Shown here: one piece after another, positions 17,908-21,936 of the stretch
How positions within the stretch are numbered: position 1 is the first letter of the stretch
Layout: each line of letters begins with the position of its first letter
Origin: Pseudomonas indica NBRC 103045
GTDB lineage: Bacteria > Pseudomonadota > Gammaproteobacteria > Pseudomonadales > Pseudomonadaceae
DNA length: 64,000 nucleotides
Reading direction: 5' to 3'
Assembly: GCF_002091635.1 (NCBI RefSeq)
Contig: NZ_BDAC01000004.1
Location: 271,142 to 335,141, forward strand
The notes under the pieces: generated by a model
The model's database searches: none
What the model was told of the DNA's origin: nothing
What the model saw: only the letters and a program-made list of their open reading frames with translations
Position numbers and translations under genes: made by a program

Positions 17908-17982
17908 ATGCAGTGGATCGATCCGGCCTTTTGCGACCTTCGCCTGGGCTTCGAAGTGACCGCTTACGTCTACGTGCGCTGA
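17908..17982 (+). CDS. PqqA-like precursor peptide (second PQQ-like operon)
   Basis: A 24-residue peptide with an AGGAG ribosome binding site 7 bases before its ATG. It shares DLRLGFEVTAY with PqqA ([11 protein letters not shown]), including the Glu-Val-Thr-x-Tyr core (Glu16, Tyr20) that PqqE cross-links. The N terminus (MQWIDPAFC) and the C-terminal VYVR tail differ from PqqA. It heads an operon with its own PqqD-like and PqqE-like genes, so it should be their substrate. The product after cross-linking is unknown. Confidence 0.88.
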   Translation: MQWIDPAFCDLRLGFEVTAYVYVR

Positions 17983-17990
17983 CCCACCGT

Positions 17991-18018
17991 GGCATGGCGC
18001 CCCGCCTGGCGCCATGCC
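17991..18018 (+). promoter_or_regulatory. Intercistronic hairpin after the PqqA-like gene
   Basis: A perfect 10-bp stem (GGCATGGCGC / GCGCCATGCC) with an 8-base loop fills most of the 53-base gap between the peptide gene and the PqqD-like gene. It could act as an attenuator or 3' stabiliser, giving more peptide than enzyme, as at pqqA-pqqB. Confidence 0.65.
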
Positions 18019-18035
18019 GTATCGAGGAGACGCTC

Positions 18036-18329
18036 ATGAGCGCGCATGCCATCACGCCGCACGACCGTTTCGAAATCCGCCCACCCTTCCTGTTCCGCTG
18101 GGAAGACTCGCAACAGGCGCATGTTCTTCTTTATCCAGAAGGCATCGTCAAGTTGAACGAAACCGGTGGCGACATTCTTCAGCTATGCGACGGGAAGAAT
18201 ACGGTCGGGCAAATAATCAAACAACTTTCCCAACGCTACTGCGCCGCAGACGAAACAACGATAAGCAACGGCGTATTGAACTTCCTGGAGGTATCCCATG
18301 GCAAAGGCTGGATCCGAACCACGGCTTGA
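18036..18329 (+). CDS. PqqD-like peptide chaperone
   Basis: A 97-residue PqqD-family protein with HVLLYPEGIVKLNETGGDIL, almost identical to the PqqD segment HVLLYPEGMIKLNESAGAIL. It should bind the PqqA-like leader and deliver it to the adjacent radical SAM enzyme. It has GAGGAGA upstream of the ATG. It overlaps the next gene by 32 bases, mirroring the 29-base pqqD-pqqE overlap. The segment DGKNTVGQIIKQLSQRY is less GC-rich than its neighbours. Confidence 0.9.
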   Translation: MSAHAITPHDRFEIRPPFLFRWEDSQQAHVLLYPEGIVKLNETGGDILQLCDGKNTVGQIIKQLSQRYCAADETTISNGVLNFLEVSHGKGWIRTTA

Positions 18330-19431: not shown

Positions 19432-19526
19432 AACTGCCCCACGACAGCTTCGCCGGAACCCTGGGCGCCGGGCTGGTCCTGACCCTGGGCGTCTACCTGC
19501 TGCTGCGTTTCTGGCTGGTCGCCTAG
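19428..19526 (+). CDS. Small single-span membrane protein in the PQQ-like operon
   Basis: A 32-residue protein with one hydrophobic helix (about residues 10-31, ending YLLLRFWLVA). Its ATG overlaps the stop of the PqqE-like gene by 4 bases and it ends 8 bases before the next gene, so it is almost certainly translated as part of the operon. It may be a subunit or anchor for the larger membrane protein that follows. I recognise no family. Confidence 0.65.
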   Translation: MKLPHDSFAGTLGAGLVLTLGVYLLLRFWLVA

Positions 19527-19534
19527 GAGGATTC

Positions 19535-20026
19535 ATGCTCGCTCTCGATCTCCTGGCCCATTATGCCCATCTGCTGTTCGCCCTGGTGTGGATCGGCCAC
19601 AACTACGCCAGCTTCGTGCAGCAACCGGCCTACGTACCGTTCCGGGGCGATGCCGCCGCGCTGGAACGCGACCTGGAGCGGCGGATGAAGCGCGAGCACG
19701 GCATCTTCCGCTACGCCTCGCTGGTGGTCTGGGCATCCGGCATGGCGATGCTCTGGCAGCGCGGCTGGCTGCCGGACGCCCTGCTGTTGCGCGGCCCGCT
19801 GGCGGTGATCGGCCTCGGTGCCTGGATCGGTACGCTGATGCTGCTGAACCTCTGGCTGGTGCTCTGGCCGCACCAGAAGAAGCTGCTCGGCTTCGTGCCG
19901 GCGAGCTTCGAAGAACGGGTGCGCTGCTCGCGCATCACCTTCCTGTCCTCGCGCAGCAACACCATTCTCTCGATGCCCTTGCTGTTCCTGATGGCGGCCG
20001 GCGGACATGGCCTGCACCTGTTCTGA
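19535..20026 (+). CDS. PuuD-like (DUF989-type) integral membrane protein
   Basis: A 163-residue protein with about four membrane helices. The start HYAHLLFALVWIGHNYASFV resembles the membrane domain of bacterial urate hydroxylase PuuD and related proteins, including the conserved His residues. There is no cytochrome c motif. It could be a heme- or quinone-linked membrane partner that reoxidises or exports the operon product; this is inference. It has GGAGG before its ATG, and its 3' end overlaps the SerC-like gene by 20 bases. Confidence 0.7.
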   Translation: MLALDLLAHYAHLLFALVWIGHNYASFVQQPAYVPFRGDAAALERDLERRMKREHGIFRYASLVVWASGMAMLWQRGWLPDALLLRGPLAVIGLGAWIGTLMLLNLWLVLWPHQKKLLGFVPASFEERVRCSRITFLSSRSNTILSMPLLFLMAAGGHGLHLF

Positions 20027-21086
20027 GGCGATCTACAACTTCGCCGCCGGCCCCTCGCCGCTGCCCGCCGAGGTGCGCGCGGCACTGCGCGAGGCGCTGG
20101 TCGAGCAGGGTCCGCTGGAGCAGCCGTTCGGCGCGGCGGCCGTCAGACGGATGCAGGAGGACGTCGAACAAGACCTGCGCGCCCTGCTGCAACTGCCCGC
20201 TCACTACCGCGTGCTGTTCCTCCAGGGCGGTGCATCCGCTCAGTTCGCCCTGCTGCCGCTGAACCTGCTGGCGCCGGGCCAATCCGCCGGCTACCTGGAA
20301 AGCGGCCACTGGGCGCGCAAGGCCATCGCCGAGGCACGCCGGCACGCTGCGCTGAAGGTGATCGCCAGCGGCGCCGACTCGGGCTTCCGCGCCCTCCCGC
20401 CCTTCGAGGCATGGCAGCTCGATGCGAACCTGGGCTATTGCCACGTCACCAGCAACGAGACCGGCGACGGCCTGCAACTGCATGACTTCCCCGAGCTGCC
20501 GGTACCACTGGTGGCCGACATGAGCTCGGATTTGCTCACCCGCCCGCTGCCGCTGGAACGCTTCGGCCTGATCTATGCCAGCGCCCAGAAAAACCTGGGC
20601 ATCGCCGGGCTCTGCCTGGTGATCGTCCGCGACGACCTGCTCCGGCCGCCGCGCCCCGGCCTGCCCTCGGTGTTCAGCTACGCCCTGCAGGCCGCCGCCA
20701 ACAGCCGCCTGAACACGCCGCCGCTGCATGCCCTGCACTGCGCCGGCGCGATGCTGCGCTGGATCGCCCGCCAGGGTGGCCTCACCGCCATGGCGGCCCT
20801 CGGCCTGGAAAAGAGCCGGAGGCTCTATCGCTGCATCGACGGCAGCGACCTCTACCACTGCCCCCAGCACACCACCGACCGCTCGCGGGTGAATGTCTGC
20901 TTCCAGCTCCGTGAGGAACGGCTGCTGCCTCTGTTCCTGCGCAGCGCCGAACGCCACGGCCTGCTCAACCTGCACGGCCATCCGGCGCTGGGCGGCGTTC
21001 GCGCCAGCCTCTACAACGCCATGCCGCTGGCTGGCGTGGACAAGTTGGTCGATTTCATGACGGCCTTCGAGCGCCAGCATGGCTGA
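20007..21086 (+). CDS. SerC-like PLP-dependent aminotransferase, divergent
   Basis: A 359-residue member of the phosphoserine aminotransferase family. The PLP-binding parts are intact: GGAS near residue 75, Asp171 and the Schiff-base Lys195 in YASAQKNLGIAGL. The region that in true SerC carries a conserved Ser-His-Arg substrate motif (after the first 35 residues) reads EQPFGAAAVRRM here, so the substrate is unlikely to be phosphoserine. The operon context suggests a substrate derived from the cross-linked peptide. Start chosen at MACTCSEAIYNFAAGPSPLP, which aligns with SerC N termini. Confidence 0.8.
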   Translation: MACTCSEAIYNFAAGPSPLPAEVRAALREALVEQGPLEQPFGAAAVRRMQEDVEQDLRALLQLPAHYRVLFLQGGASAQFALLPLNLLAPGQSAGYLESGHWARKAIAEARRHAALKVIASGADSGFRALPPFEAWQLDANLGYCHVTSNETGDGLQLHDFPELPVPLVADMSSDLLTRPLPLERFGLIYASAQKNLGIAGLCLVIVRDDLLRPPRPGLPSVFSYALQAAANSRLNTPPLHALHCAGAMLRWIARQGGLTAMAALGLEKSRRLYRCIDGSDLYHCPQHTTDRSRVNVCFQLREERLLPLFLRSAERHGLLNLHGHPALGGVRASLYNAMPLAGVDKLVDFMTAFERQHG

Positions 21087-21936
21087 GGTCCAGCAGTCGG
21101 ACGTCTCGCTGCGCCACCTCCGCGAGCGCCTGCGCCTGAGTCTGGCCTGCGCCGCCGCCCGCCTTGCCATCGAGGACGCCCCCTCCCGGCCGGTCGAGGC
21201 CATGGGCCTGCGCTTCGACACGCCCCTGGGCATCGCCGCTGGCTTCGACCGTCATGGCCGCCTGGGACGACGGGCCGGATCGCTGGGCTTCGGTTTCATC
21301 GAAGTGGGCAGCCTTCATCCGGCCGAATTGTCCGGCCTGCTCCGTAGCACGGGGACAGCGCAGTTGGGCATCAACCTCGGCCTGACGCCGGGTATTCCCG
21401 AGGCCGTCTTCCACGAAGCGCTAGCGCAGCTCTGGCCGCAGGCGGACTACCTCATGCTCAACCTGATCCACCCAGCCTGCGCGCCTCTGCTGGAGCCCGG
21501 CGCCCGCTCACACCTGACCCGCCTGCTGGCCAGCCTGCGCGAACGGCAGCACCGGCTCGACCGACTCGGCGGCCGCCAGGTCCCGCTGGCCGCCAAGCTG
21601 CGCTGCCTGCCGGGCGACCTGCCCCTCGACCTCGCCGCCCTGCTGCGCGACCTGGGCTTCGACGCCCTCCTCGCCGCCCACGACCCCGGCCCACCCGCCA
21701 CACCCCAGCGCTACCGCCACTGGCAAGACCCTGCCGTCCAAGCCCAGGCCTGCACCCAGATCGAACGCCTGCGCAGCCTCTGCGGCCCGCGCATGGCCCT
21801 GCTGTCGGTAGGCGGCATCCAGACCGCCGCGCACCTGAACGACCGCCTCGACGCCGGCGCGGAGCTGGTGCAGGTGTATGGCGCGCTGAAGGAACAGGGG
21901 CCGGGGGTGGCGGGGCGGATGTTGAGCCGCGGCTGA
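21079..21936 (+). CDS. PyrD-like flavoprotein, divergent
   Basis: A 285-residue protein clearly related to class 2 dihydroorotate dehydrogenase: PVEAMGLRFDTPLGIAAGFD and LGFGFIEVGSLHP match the FMN barrel. It is shorter than PyrD (about 340), lacking most of the N-terminal membrane-associated part. The active-site stretch with the catalytic Ser in PyrD (NISSPN) reads NLIHPA, putting His131 in its place, and the Lys of GLDKNG is Arg58. It is thus probably an FMN oxidoreductase with another substrate. Last gene of the operon, overlapping the SerC-like gene by 8 bases. Confidence 0.78.
   Translation: MAEVQQSDVSLRHLRERLRLSLACAAARLAIEDAPSRPVEAMGLRFDTPLGIAAGFDRHGRLGRRAGSLGFGFIEVGSLHPAELSGLLRSTGTAQLGINLGLTPGIPEAVFHEALAQLWPQADYLMLNLIHPACAPLLEPGARSHLTRLLASLRERQHRLDRLGGRQVPLAAKLRCLPGDLPLDLAALLRDLGFDALLAAHDPGPPATPQRYRHWQDPAVQAQACTQIERLRSLCGPRMALLSVGGIQTAAHLNDRLDAGAELVQVYGALKEQGPGVAGRMLSRG

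Follow-up and report, generated by a model that had tools for sequence, protein, structure and literature searches.

A second pqq-like operon of Pseudomonas indica, a probable anaerobically induced route to pyrroloquinoline quinone or a related quinone

Why would a bacterium that carries the canonical genes for pyrroloquinoline quinone (PQQ) also keep a second PqqA-like precursor peptide, together with its own PqqD- and PqqE-family proteins and relatives of PuuD, SerC and PyrD? Here we examine this question for a compact seven-gene operon at positions 17908-21936, on the plus strand, of a 64,000-nucleotide stretch of the Pseudomonas indica NBRC 103045 genome (contig NZ_BDAC01000004.1; hereafter the window, meaning the whole stretch that was analysed). 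From its gene content, its conservation, the active sites of its products and the sequence upstream of it, we infer an anaerobically induced pathway that probably makes PQQ, or a PQQ-like quinone, without molecular oxygen (O2).

A conserved operon with its own precursor peptide and PqqE

The 24-residue product of pqqA2 (17908..17982), MQWIDPAFCDLRLGFEVTAYVYVR, has the spacing E16-x3-Y20 and the tail AYVYVR, and scores above both PqqA cut-offs (PF08042, 6.7e-10 and 39.1 bits against 21.1; TIGR02107, 32.8 bits against 20). It is followed, after 53 nucleotides (nt), by pqqD2 (18036..18329), which encodes a 97-residue PqqD-family peptide chaperone (PF05402, 9e-19 and 68 bits against 23.4; TIGR03859, 88 against 46; below the cut-off of the stricter NF002535, 94.7 against 101), and by pqqE2 (18298..19431), whose 377-residue radical S-adenosylmethionine (SAM)/SPASM product passes the TIGR02109 equivalog cut-off (489.5 bits against 381.35; the canonical copy reaches 607.9). 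Next in order are genes for a hydrophobic 32-residue peptide (19428..19526), a four-helix PuuD-like membrane protein of 163 residues (19535..20026), a SerC-like protein of 359 residues belonging to the class V pyridoxal phosphate (PLP) enzyme family (20007..21086) and a PyrD-like predicted flavoprotein of 285 residues (21079..21936). An earlier reading of this DNA from its letters alone, referred to below as the original prediction, had named this gene set; every gene was found where it had been placed, and profile scans (Pfam and NCBIfam models with their own cut-offs) confirmed the PqqA, PqqD and PqqE families. Four of the six junctions overlap (by 32, 4, 20 and 8 nt), and the other two are an 8-nt gap and the 53-nt spacing between pqqA2 and pqqD2. 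Scans of the seven operon products with the same two collections found neither PqqB nor PqqC, both of which are encoded at 10020-11713 instead.

A PyrD-like profile search of a one-genome-per-species collection returned 44 loci, a number to be read as at least 44 since the prefilter consisted of two short peptide patterns. Three of these (L055-L057) proved to be distant hits to ordinary PyrD (25-26%), accompanied by no other operon gene, and were set aside. In all 41 remaining loci, from Pseudomonas, Stutzerimonas, Halomonas, Billgrantia, Marinobacter and Marinobacterium, the gene set recurs in the same order, an arrangement far beyond chance. PqqE2, the PuuD-like protein and the SerC-like protein are each intact over at least 80% in 41/41 loci, the PyrD-like protein in 40 (its gene is split in L042), and PqqD2 and the precursor peptide in 39 each. 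The peptide gene is missing from L017, where the region has been replaced, and from L051, at a contig edge; PqqD2 is likewise missing in L051 and is partial in L024, where the PqqE2 match begins only at residue 64. The same set is carried by alphaproteobacterial plasmids of Acidibrevibacterium and Methylovirgula, the latter without a recognised 32-residue peptide. A class-wide draw of 369 genomes gave five positives for the PuuD-like marker, two of them already known and three new, and the new loci match all seven genes; among 398 genomes drawn from across the phylum the marker reached at least 290 bits in only two, the next best match scoring 131 bits. Co-occurrence of the set in other genomes, which the original prediction had put forward as a check, is borne out on the chromosomal loci, on two plasmids and in the class draw alike.

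In a tree of 26 PqqE2 and 21 canonical PqqE sequences, most of the canonical ones being from the gammaproteobacterial genomes that also supplied PqqE2 and none being alphaproteobacterial, PqqE2 forms one clade on a 100/100 branch, apart from canonical PqqE and including both alphaproteobacterial PqqE2. This separation indicates that the operon is not a recent local duplicate, and we regard the gene set as old. The tail AYVYVR is found in 38 loci and both plasmids, with AYVFVR in L054, and the canonical PqqA peptides of operon genomes end in MYFANR, LYIANR or LYISNR. The operon is a separate unit with a precursor peptide of its own, as the original prediction held in arguing against a mere duplicate. 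At the family level it shares with the canonical PqqABCDE system its E-x3-Y peptide, PqqD and PqqE, and it differs from that system in the absence of PqqB and PqqC, in the C-terminal tail of the peptide and in the clade of its PqqE. It also resembles the mycofactocin pathway, in which radical SAM/SPASM peptide maturation is followed by a flavoenzyme, MftD, but the peptide is a different one and the TIGR03962 (MftC) score, 90.3 bits, lies far under the cut-off of 265, and on that score we rejected a mycofactocin-like system.

Remodelled enzymes and a possible oxygen-free chemistry

The SerC-like protein (PF00266, 2.3e-28) is 47% identical to the genome's other SerC, encoded on another contig, and scores above NF003764 (386.6 bits against 253) and below TIGR01364 (354.6 against 443.6). 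What likens it to SerC is the class V PLP family and, in 44/44 SerC-like proteins, an invariant PLP-binding catalytic Lys, second His and GG-x-R Arg. What sets it apart is the phosphate site, the positions of which were mapped by alignment: the first phosphate-binding His is Phe in all 44, T, G, S or A replaces the Arg next to it in all 44, and the second phosphate Arg is kept in none. Three further SerC-like copies show the same losses and retentions. For comparison, passages on the Arabidopsis SerC (PMC6043687) describe sulfate competing at H396, R397, R111 and H110, which indicates binding of the phosphoserine phosphate there. Annotation pipelines call the operon gene serC.

Similar changes mark the PyrD-like protein (PF01180, 4.1e-16), which falls below the TIGR01036 cut-off (98.8 bits against 200), is shorter than the genome's own PyrD, located on another contig, and shares 30% overall identity with it. 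Its structural model finds its best match in E. coli PyrD (dihydroorotate dehydrogenase 1f76, E 2e-18). The likeness to quinone-dependent PyrD extends to the predicted fold and to the flavin mononucleotide (FMN) Lys, kept in 44/44 PyrD-like proteins; the catalytic Ser is kept in only 10/44, the window's copy not being among them, and AHDP mostly replaces the TNTT motif of the substrate site (His in 31, Pro in 31), all three elements being named for their roles in PyrD. Automatic annotation names the gene dihydroorotate dehydrogenase. A public Pseudomonas indica record contains a PyrD-like protein 94% identical to that of the window. Many of its relatives are entered in public records as 'phosphoserine aminotransferase', which looks like misannotation. 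Two further sequences, P0106 (a PyrD-like protein fused to a SerC-like one) and P0107 (a scrambled PyrD-like protein), look like assembly or frameshift artefacts and were not included in the alignment.

Both membrane proteins noted in the original prediction are present, and the relation of the larger one to PuuD had gone unseen there. The smaller, 32-residue peptide, which carries a PHDS motif, is present in 39/44 operons by a motif scan (over the 41 loci, the window and the two plasmids), is intact over at least 80% by similarity in 34/41 loci and goes undetected by similarity in five, and has no family match in Pfam or NCBIfam; its sequence probably forms one membrane helix. The 163-residue protein matches part of the PuuD membrane domain (PF06181, Urate_ox_N, 1.7e-9, profile positions 171-237 of 295), with H12, H22, H55 and H158, possible haem b ligands, invariant in an alignment of 51 rows, and its model (mean predicted local distance difference test score 87.5) consists of four long helices and one five-residue helix. 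Passages of PMC4562309 report that PuuD oxidises urate and that evidence suggests electron transfer through its cytochrome c. The likeness of the operon protein to this cytochrome c urate oxidase is confined to that part of the membrane domain; PuuD has eight helices rather than four, and a different gene context. A related membrane family, scoring about 75-131 bits with the PuuD-like marker in frames of about 200 residues, is common in other Proteobacteria of the phylum-wide draw.

Read together, these families suggest a route that would begin with PqqD2 and PqqE2 cross-linking Glu16 to Tyr20 in the 24-residue peptide, an activity that their family membership implies. The linked Glu-Tyr would be released by a protease whose gene lies outside the operon, probably that of the canonical pathway, and its tyrosine ring might then be oxidised by the PuuD-like protein and the 32-residue peptide, with oxygen presumably drawn from water and electrons passed to the respiratory chain. 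For the SerC-like protein, with its catalytic Lys kept and its phosphate site lost, the predicted target is the alpha-amino acid end of this intermediate, and removal of hydrogens by the PyrD-like flavoprotein would give the aromatic heterocycles. These two proteins are plausible substitutes for the PqqB/PqqC half of the canonical pathway, the half that consumes O2. By formula, cross-linked Glu-Tyr (C14H18N2O7) and water yield PQQ (C14H6N2O8) with the loss of 14 H, or 14 electrons; because the conversion balances with one water, O2 is unnecessary in principle. If this scheme is true, it implies three novel activities in proteins of well-known fold, and PQQ would join haem and ubiquinone among the cofactors that have an O2-free alternative route.

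Predicted anaerobic-type control, hosts with denitrification genes and competing explanations

A box with 10/10 consensus bases of the FNR/Anr type, TTGATGAAAATCAA (17735..17748, plus strand), begins 173 nt 5' of the peptide gene. We scanned the 300 nt 5' of the peptide gene in 42 loci with the FNR/Anr consensus, using first-order Markov resamples as a control. A box of at least 9/10 is present in 17/42 operon upstreams and is perfect in 13, compared with 1.05% and 0.14% of the resamples, respectively, and the same scan found none of at least 9/10 in 33 canonical pqqA upstreams (Fisher p 1e-5, a value that treats related genomes as independent). Two of the three new class-draw loci have a perfect box and the third has 8/10. 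In Marinobacter the operons (L047 1-4518, L049 1-4414) adjoin narK/narX/narL-like genes, among them a histidine kinase and a LuxR-type response regulator, and stand beside an SCP2-domain gene that resembles UbiT by sequence reading and Pfam domains, ubiT being a gene of O2-independent ubiquinone synthesis; the Methylovirgula copy lies beside a Crp/Fnr-family gene. Judged from these upstream regions and neighbours, control of the operon looks anaerobic and of the FNR/Anr type. The idea that the operon and the canonical genes have a promoter element in common was rejected: the conserved element CCAAAGTnnTATnAG occurs exactly once in the window, 5' of the operon, the other two matches having two mismatches each.

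The hosts largely carry denitrification genes. NosZ scores over its cut-off in 40/42 operon genomes (the exceptions are S. chloritidismutans AW-1 and one metagenome genome), NarG does so in 36 of 44 genome entries, or 34 of the 42 distinct genomes, and one or the other is found in 41; the genome of the window has both. Across 348 Pseudomonadaceae genomes, NosZ is present in 32/34 of those positive for the PuuD-like marker and in 77/314 of those negative for it (Fisher p 7e-16). Of the 41 operon genomes scanned for canonical PqqC, which include neither plasmid strain and none of the three new class-draw genomes, 40 encode it. Outside the operon, no gene family is common to all 42 neighbourhoods (about 8 kb, some contigs being short), the commonest being aldehyde dehydrogenase in 31/42. 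The operon is thus not accompanied by a gene for a dedicated user, and a product that serves enzymes encoded elsewhere would fit PQQ; the near-constant presence of PqqC, the lack of a user gene and the anaerobic-type control together fit synthesis of this same cofactor without O2.

Such a route has been proposed in print, unproven. Passages of PMC12423496 (Mol Microbiol 2025) describe a pqqAED-puuD-serC-pyrD cluster in Hyphomicrobium denitrificans (Hden_0548-0553) beside a full canonical pqq set, and its authors call 'tempting' the speculation that the cluster completes PQQ synthesis without O2. The same passages list the cluster in H. nitrativorans, Halomonas sulfidovorans, S. stutzeri, Methylophaga nitratireducenticrescens and Azoarcus DN11, all denitrifiers, report that Hden_0551-0553 are transcribed at a much lower level in mutants of regulators whose loss also affects anaerobic genes, and give K. 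pneumoniae and P. aeruginosa, with canonical genes only and no anaerobic PQQ, as counter-examples. The original prediction knew of no described pathway of this composition, a claim that PMC12423496 overturns; beyond that paper, we recognised no other proposal of an O2-independent PQQ cluster among the papers listed by our literature search, whose coverage left out most subscription journals. The window has the make-up given in those passages, namely pqqA-, pqqD-, pqqE-, puuD-, serC- and pyrD-like genes accompanied by canonical pqq and denitrification genes. Likened by description rather than by direct sequence comparison, it shares with the Hyphomicrobium cluster the kinds of gene and the canonical set alongside, and it differs in the evidence on regulation, which is sHdrR/SoxR-dependent transcription in that alphaproteobacterium, according to the same passages, and an FNR-type box here. 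New in this work are the conserved FNR box, the active-site losses, the separate PqqE clade, the 32-residue peptide and the wider distribution. An O2-free route, if real, would explain how denitrifiers can use their alcohol and methanol dehydrogenases when O2 is absent. Text from PMC11102522 (2024), on N2O-respiring methanotrophs, describes PQQ-dependent methanol dehydrogenases as limited in strict anoxia owing to the O2 need of PQQ, and parts of PMC12997753 (2026), on Pseudomonas ped clusters, state that PQQ synthesis needs O2 and that secondary pqq operons are often incomplete.

Several observations weigh against an anaerobic PQQ pathway. The box is uneven: 16 of the 25 upstreams below 9/10, from Stutzerimonas and close Pseudomonas, have only 7-8/10 at a similar place, Billgrantia (L045) and Marinobacterium (L054) have only 8/10, and seven of the 42 (L026, L028, L033, L041, L042, L052 and L059) have no box at that place. 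Eight of the 42 operon genomes are without NarG, S. chloritidismutans AW-1 has neither NarG nor NosZ, and shared ancestry confounds the association with NosZ, since 31 of the 34 genomes with the marker belong to one genus. Canonical PqqC is present in 61 of the 77 NosZ-positive, marker-negative Pseudomonadaceae, so that PQQ-making denitrifiers often lack the operon and do not require it; conversely, no operon genome among the 41 is clearly without PqqC, the sole exception being a 3.6-Mb metagenome genome (G014). As for the chemistry, no protease gene is conserved within the operon, a motif scan of the PuuD-like protein found no CxxCH and hence none of PuuD's cytochrome c, and the model of that protein has no significant match in the PDB (the best, E 0.62, is a NarGHI chain). 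Finally, both nitrogens are retained in PQQ, which makes a net transamination hard to place; the SerC-like protein may use PLP for a reaction of another kind, or a different product may be made.

That last possibility, in which the operon yields some other redox cofactor or signal derived from Glu-Tyr, such as a relative of PQQ whose nitrogen is lost or exchanged by the SerC-like enzyme, we consider unlikely. The peptide with its AYVYVR or AYVFVR tail, unlike those of canonical PqqA, and the remodelled active site of the SerC-like protein speak for it, and we know of no aminotransferase-family enzyme in canonical PQQ synthesis; yet PqqC accompanies the operon almost throughout, no dedicated user gene travels along, and anaerobic-type control would itself account for keeping a second route to the same cofactor. 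In one form of this idea, which we hold to be doubtful, the product would be a new redox cofactor, an O2-free sister of PQQ made from its own Glu-Tyr peptide with nitrogen removed or exchanged by the SerC-like protein, and would serve quinoprotein dehydrogenases in denitrification. The original prediction had argued along these lines, with the SerC- and PyrD-like proteins replacing the PqqB/PqqC steps on the way to a different molecule; the replacement is plausible, and the different product is possible but less likely than PQQ itself. The observation behind that prediction is confirmed and its interpretation partly supported, and an O2-independent PQQ branch under FNR/Anr-type control is, on the sequence evidence, most likely.

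It is improbable that the role of the operon stops at providing cross-linked precursor under anoxia, with PqqB and PqqC completing PQQ once O2 returns and the PuuD-, SerC- and PyrD-like proteins processing or salvaging intermediates. PqqE is a radical SAM enzyme without a need for O2, and canonical PqqC is available in nearly every host, as this explanation expects, but the retention of three remodelled proteins, two of them intact in every locus and the third in all but one, would be left unexplained. A ribosomally synthesised and post-translationally modified peptide functionally unrelated to PQQ, such as a membrane-acting product handled by the two membrane proteins, has in its favour those two proteins and a cbpA/cbpB pair close by in Methylovirgula; the PqqA-like E-x3-Y and its surroundings, and a PqqE2 above the PqqE equivalog cut-off, make it very improbable. 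Least credible of all is a redundant pqq duplicate with hitch-hiking housekeeping copies of serC and pyrD: pipelines do give the genes those names, but the genome has its other SerC and its other PyrD on another contig, PqqE2 stands in its own clade, and in its plain form this explanation is ruled out by the loss of signature residues in 44/44 SerC-like proteins.

Neighbouring genes and further observations

The canonical genes of the window lie on the minus strand, with PqqE at 8628..9773, PqqC at 10020..10772 (TIGR02111, 414 bits against 240), PqqB at 10799..11713 (TIGR02108, 416 against 245) and the PqqA peptide of 23 letters at 11798..11869, its gene starting at 11869. The original prediction had spoken of a complete pqqABCDE set, of which PqqA, PqqB, PqqC and PqqE were found, canonical PqqD not having been separately scanned. 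A PQQ-dependent alcohol dehydrogenase at 27325..29280 on the minus strand (TIGR03075, 799.2 bits against 480.05) is a candidate user of the operon product, and the family scan placed ExaC in the window as well. At 22025-24728, 3' of the operon and outside its conserved set, are genes for a LysR regulator (minus strand) and a D-amino acid dehydrogenase family protein, and an open reading frame that reads as RidA-like.

Individual loci elsewhere have features of their own. In S. stutzeri TS44 (L017 380-760) the peptide gene and its promoter are gone and unrelated sequence, apparently from the aldehyde dehydrogenase region, adjoins pqqD2, which reflects either a deletion or a misassembly. In Acidibrevibacterium (L058 10939-12117) an M48 metalloprotease gene lies 3' of the operon and is a candidate for the missing peptide-cleaving step. 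The Methylovirgula plasmid (L059 3454-6303) carries the second radical-SAM peptide pair, annotated cbpA/cbpB, 5' of the operon, with the Crp/Fnr-family gene between them. A PyrD-like family member is encoded in a Desulfuromonas metagenome genome (P0163), and a strict anaerobe carrying the operon would be telling. In a small genome (G895, L103 11536-15556) the operon adjoins, by sequence reading, a 698-residue anaerobic ribonucleotide reductase-like protein and radical SAM genes.

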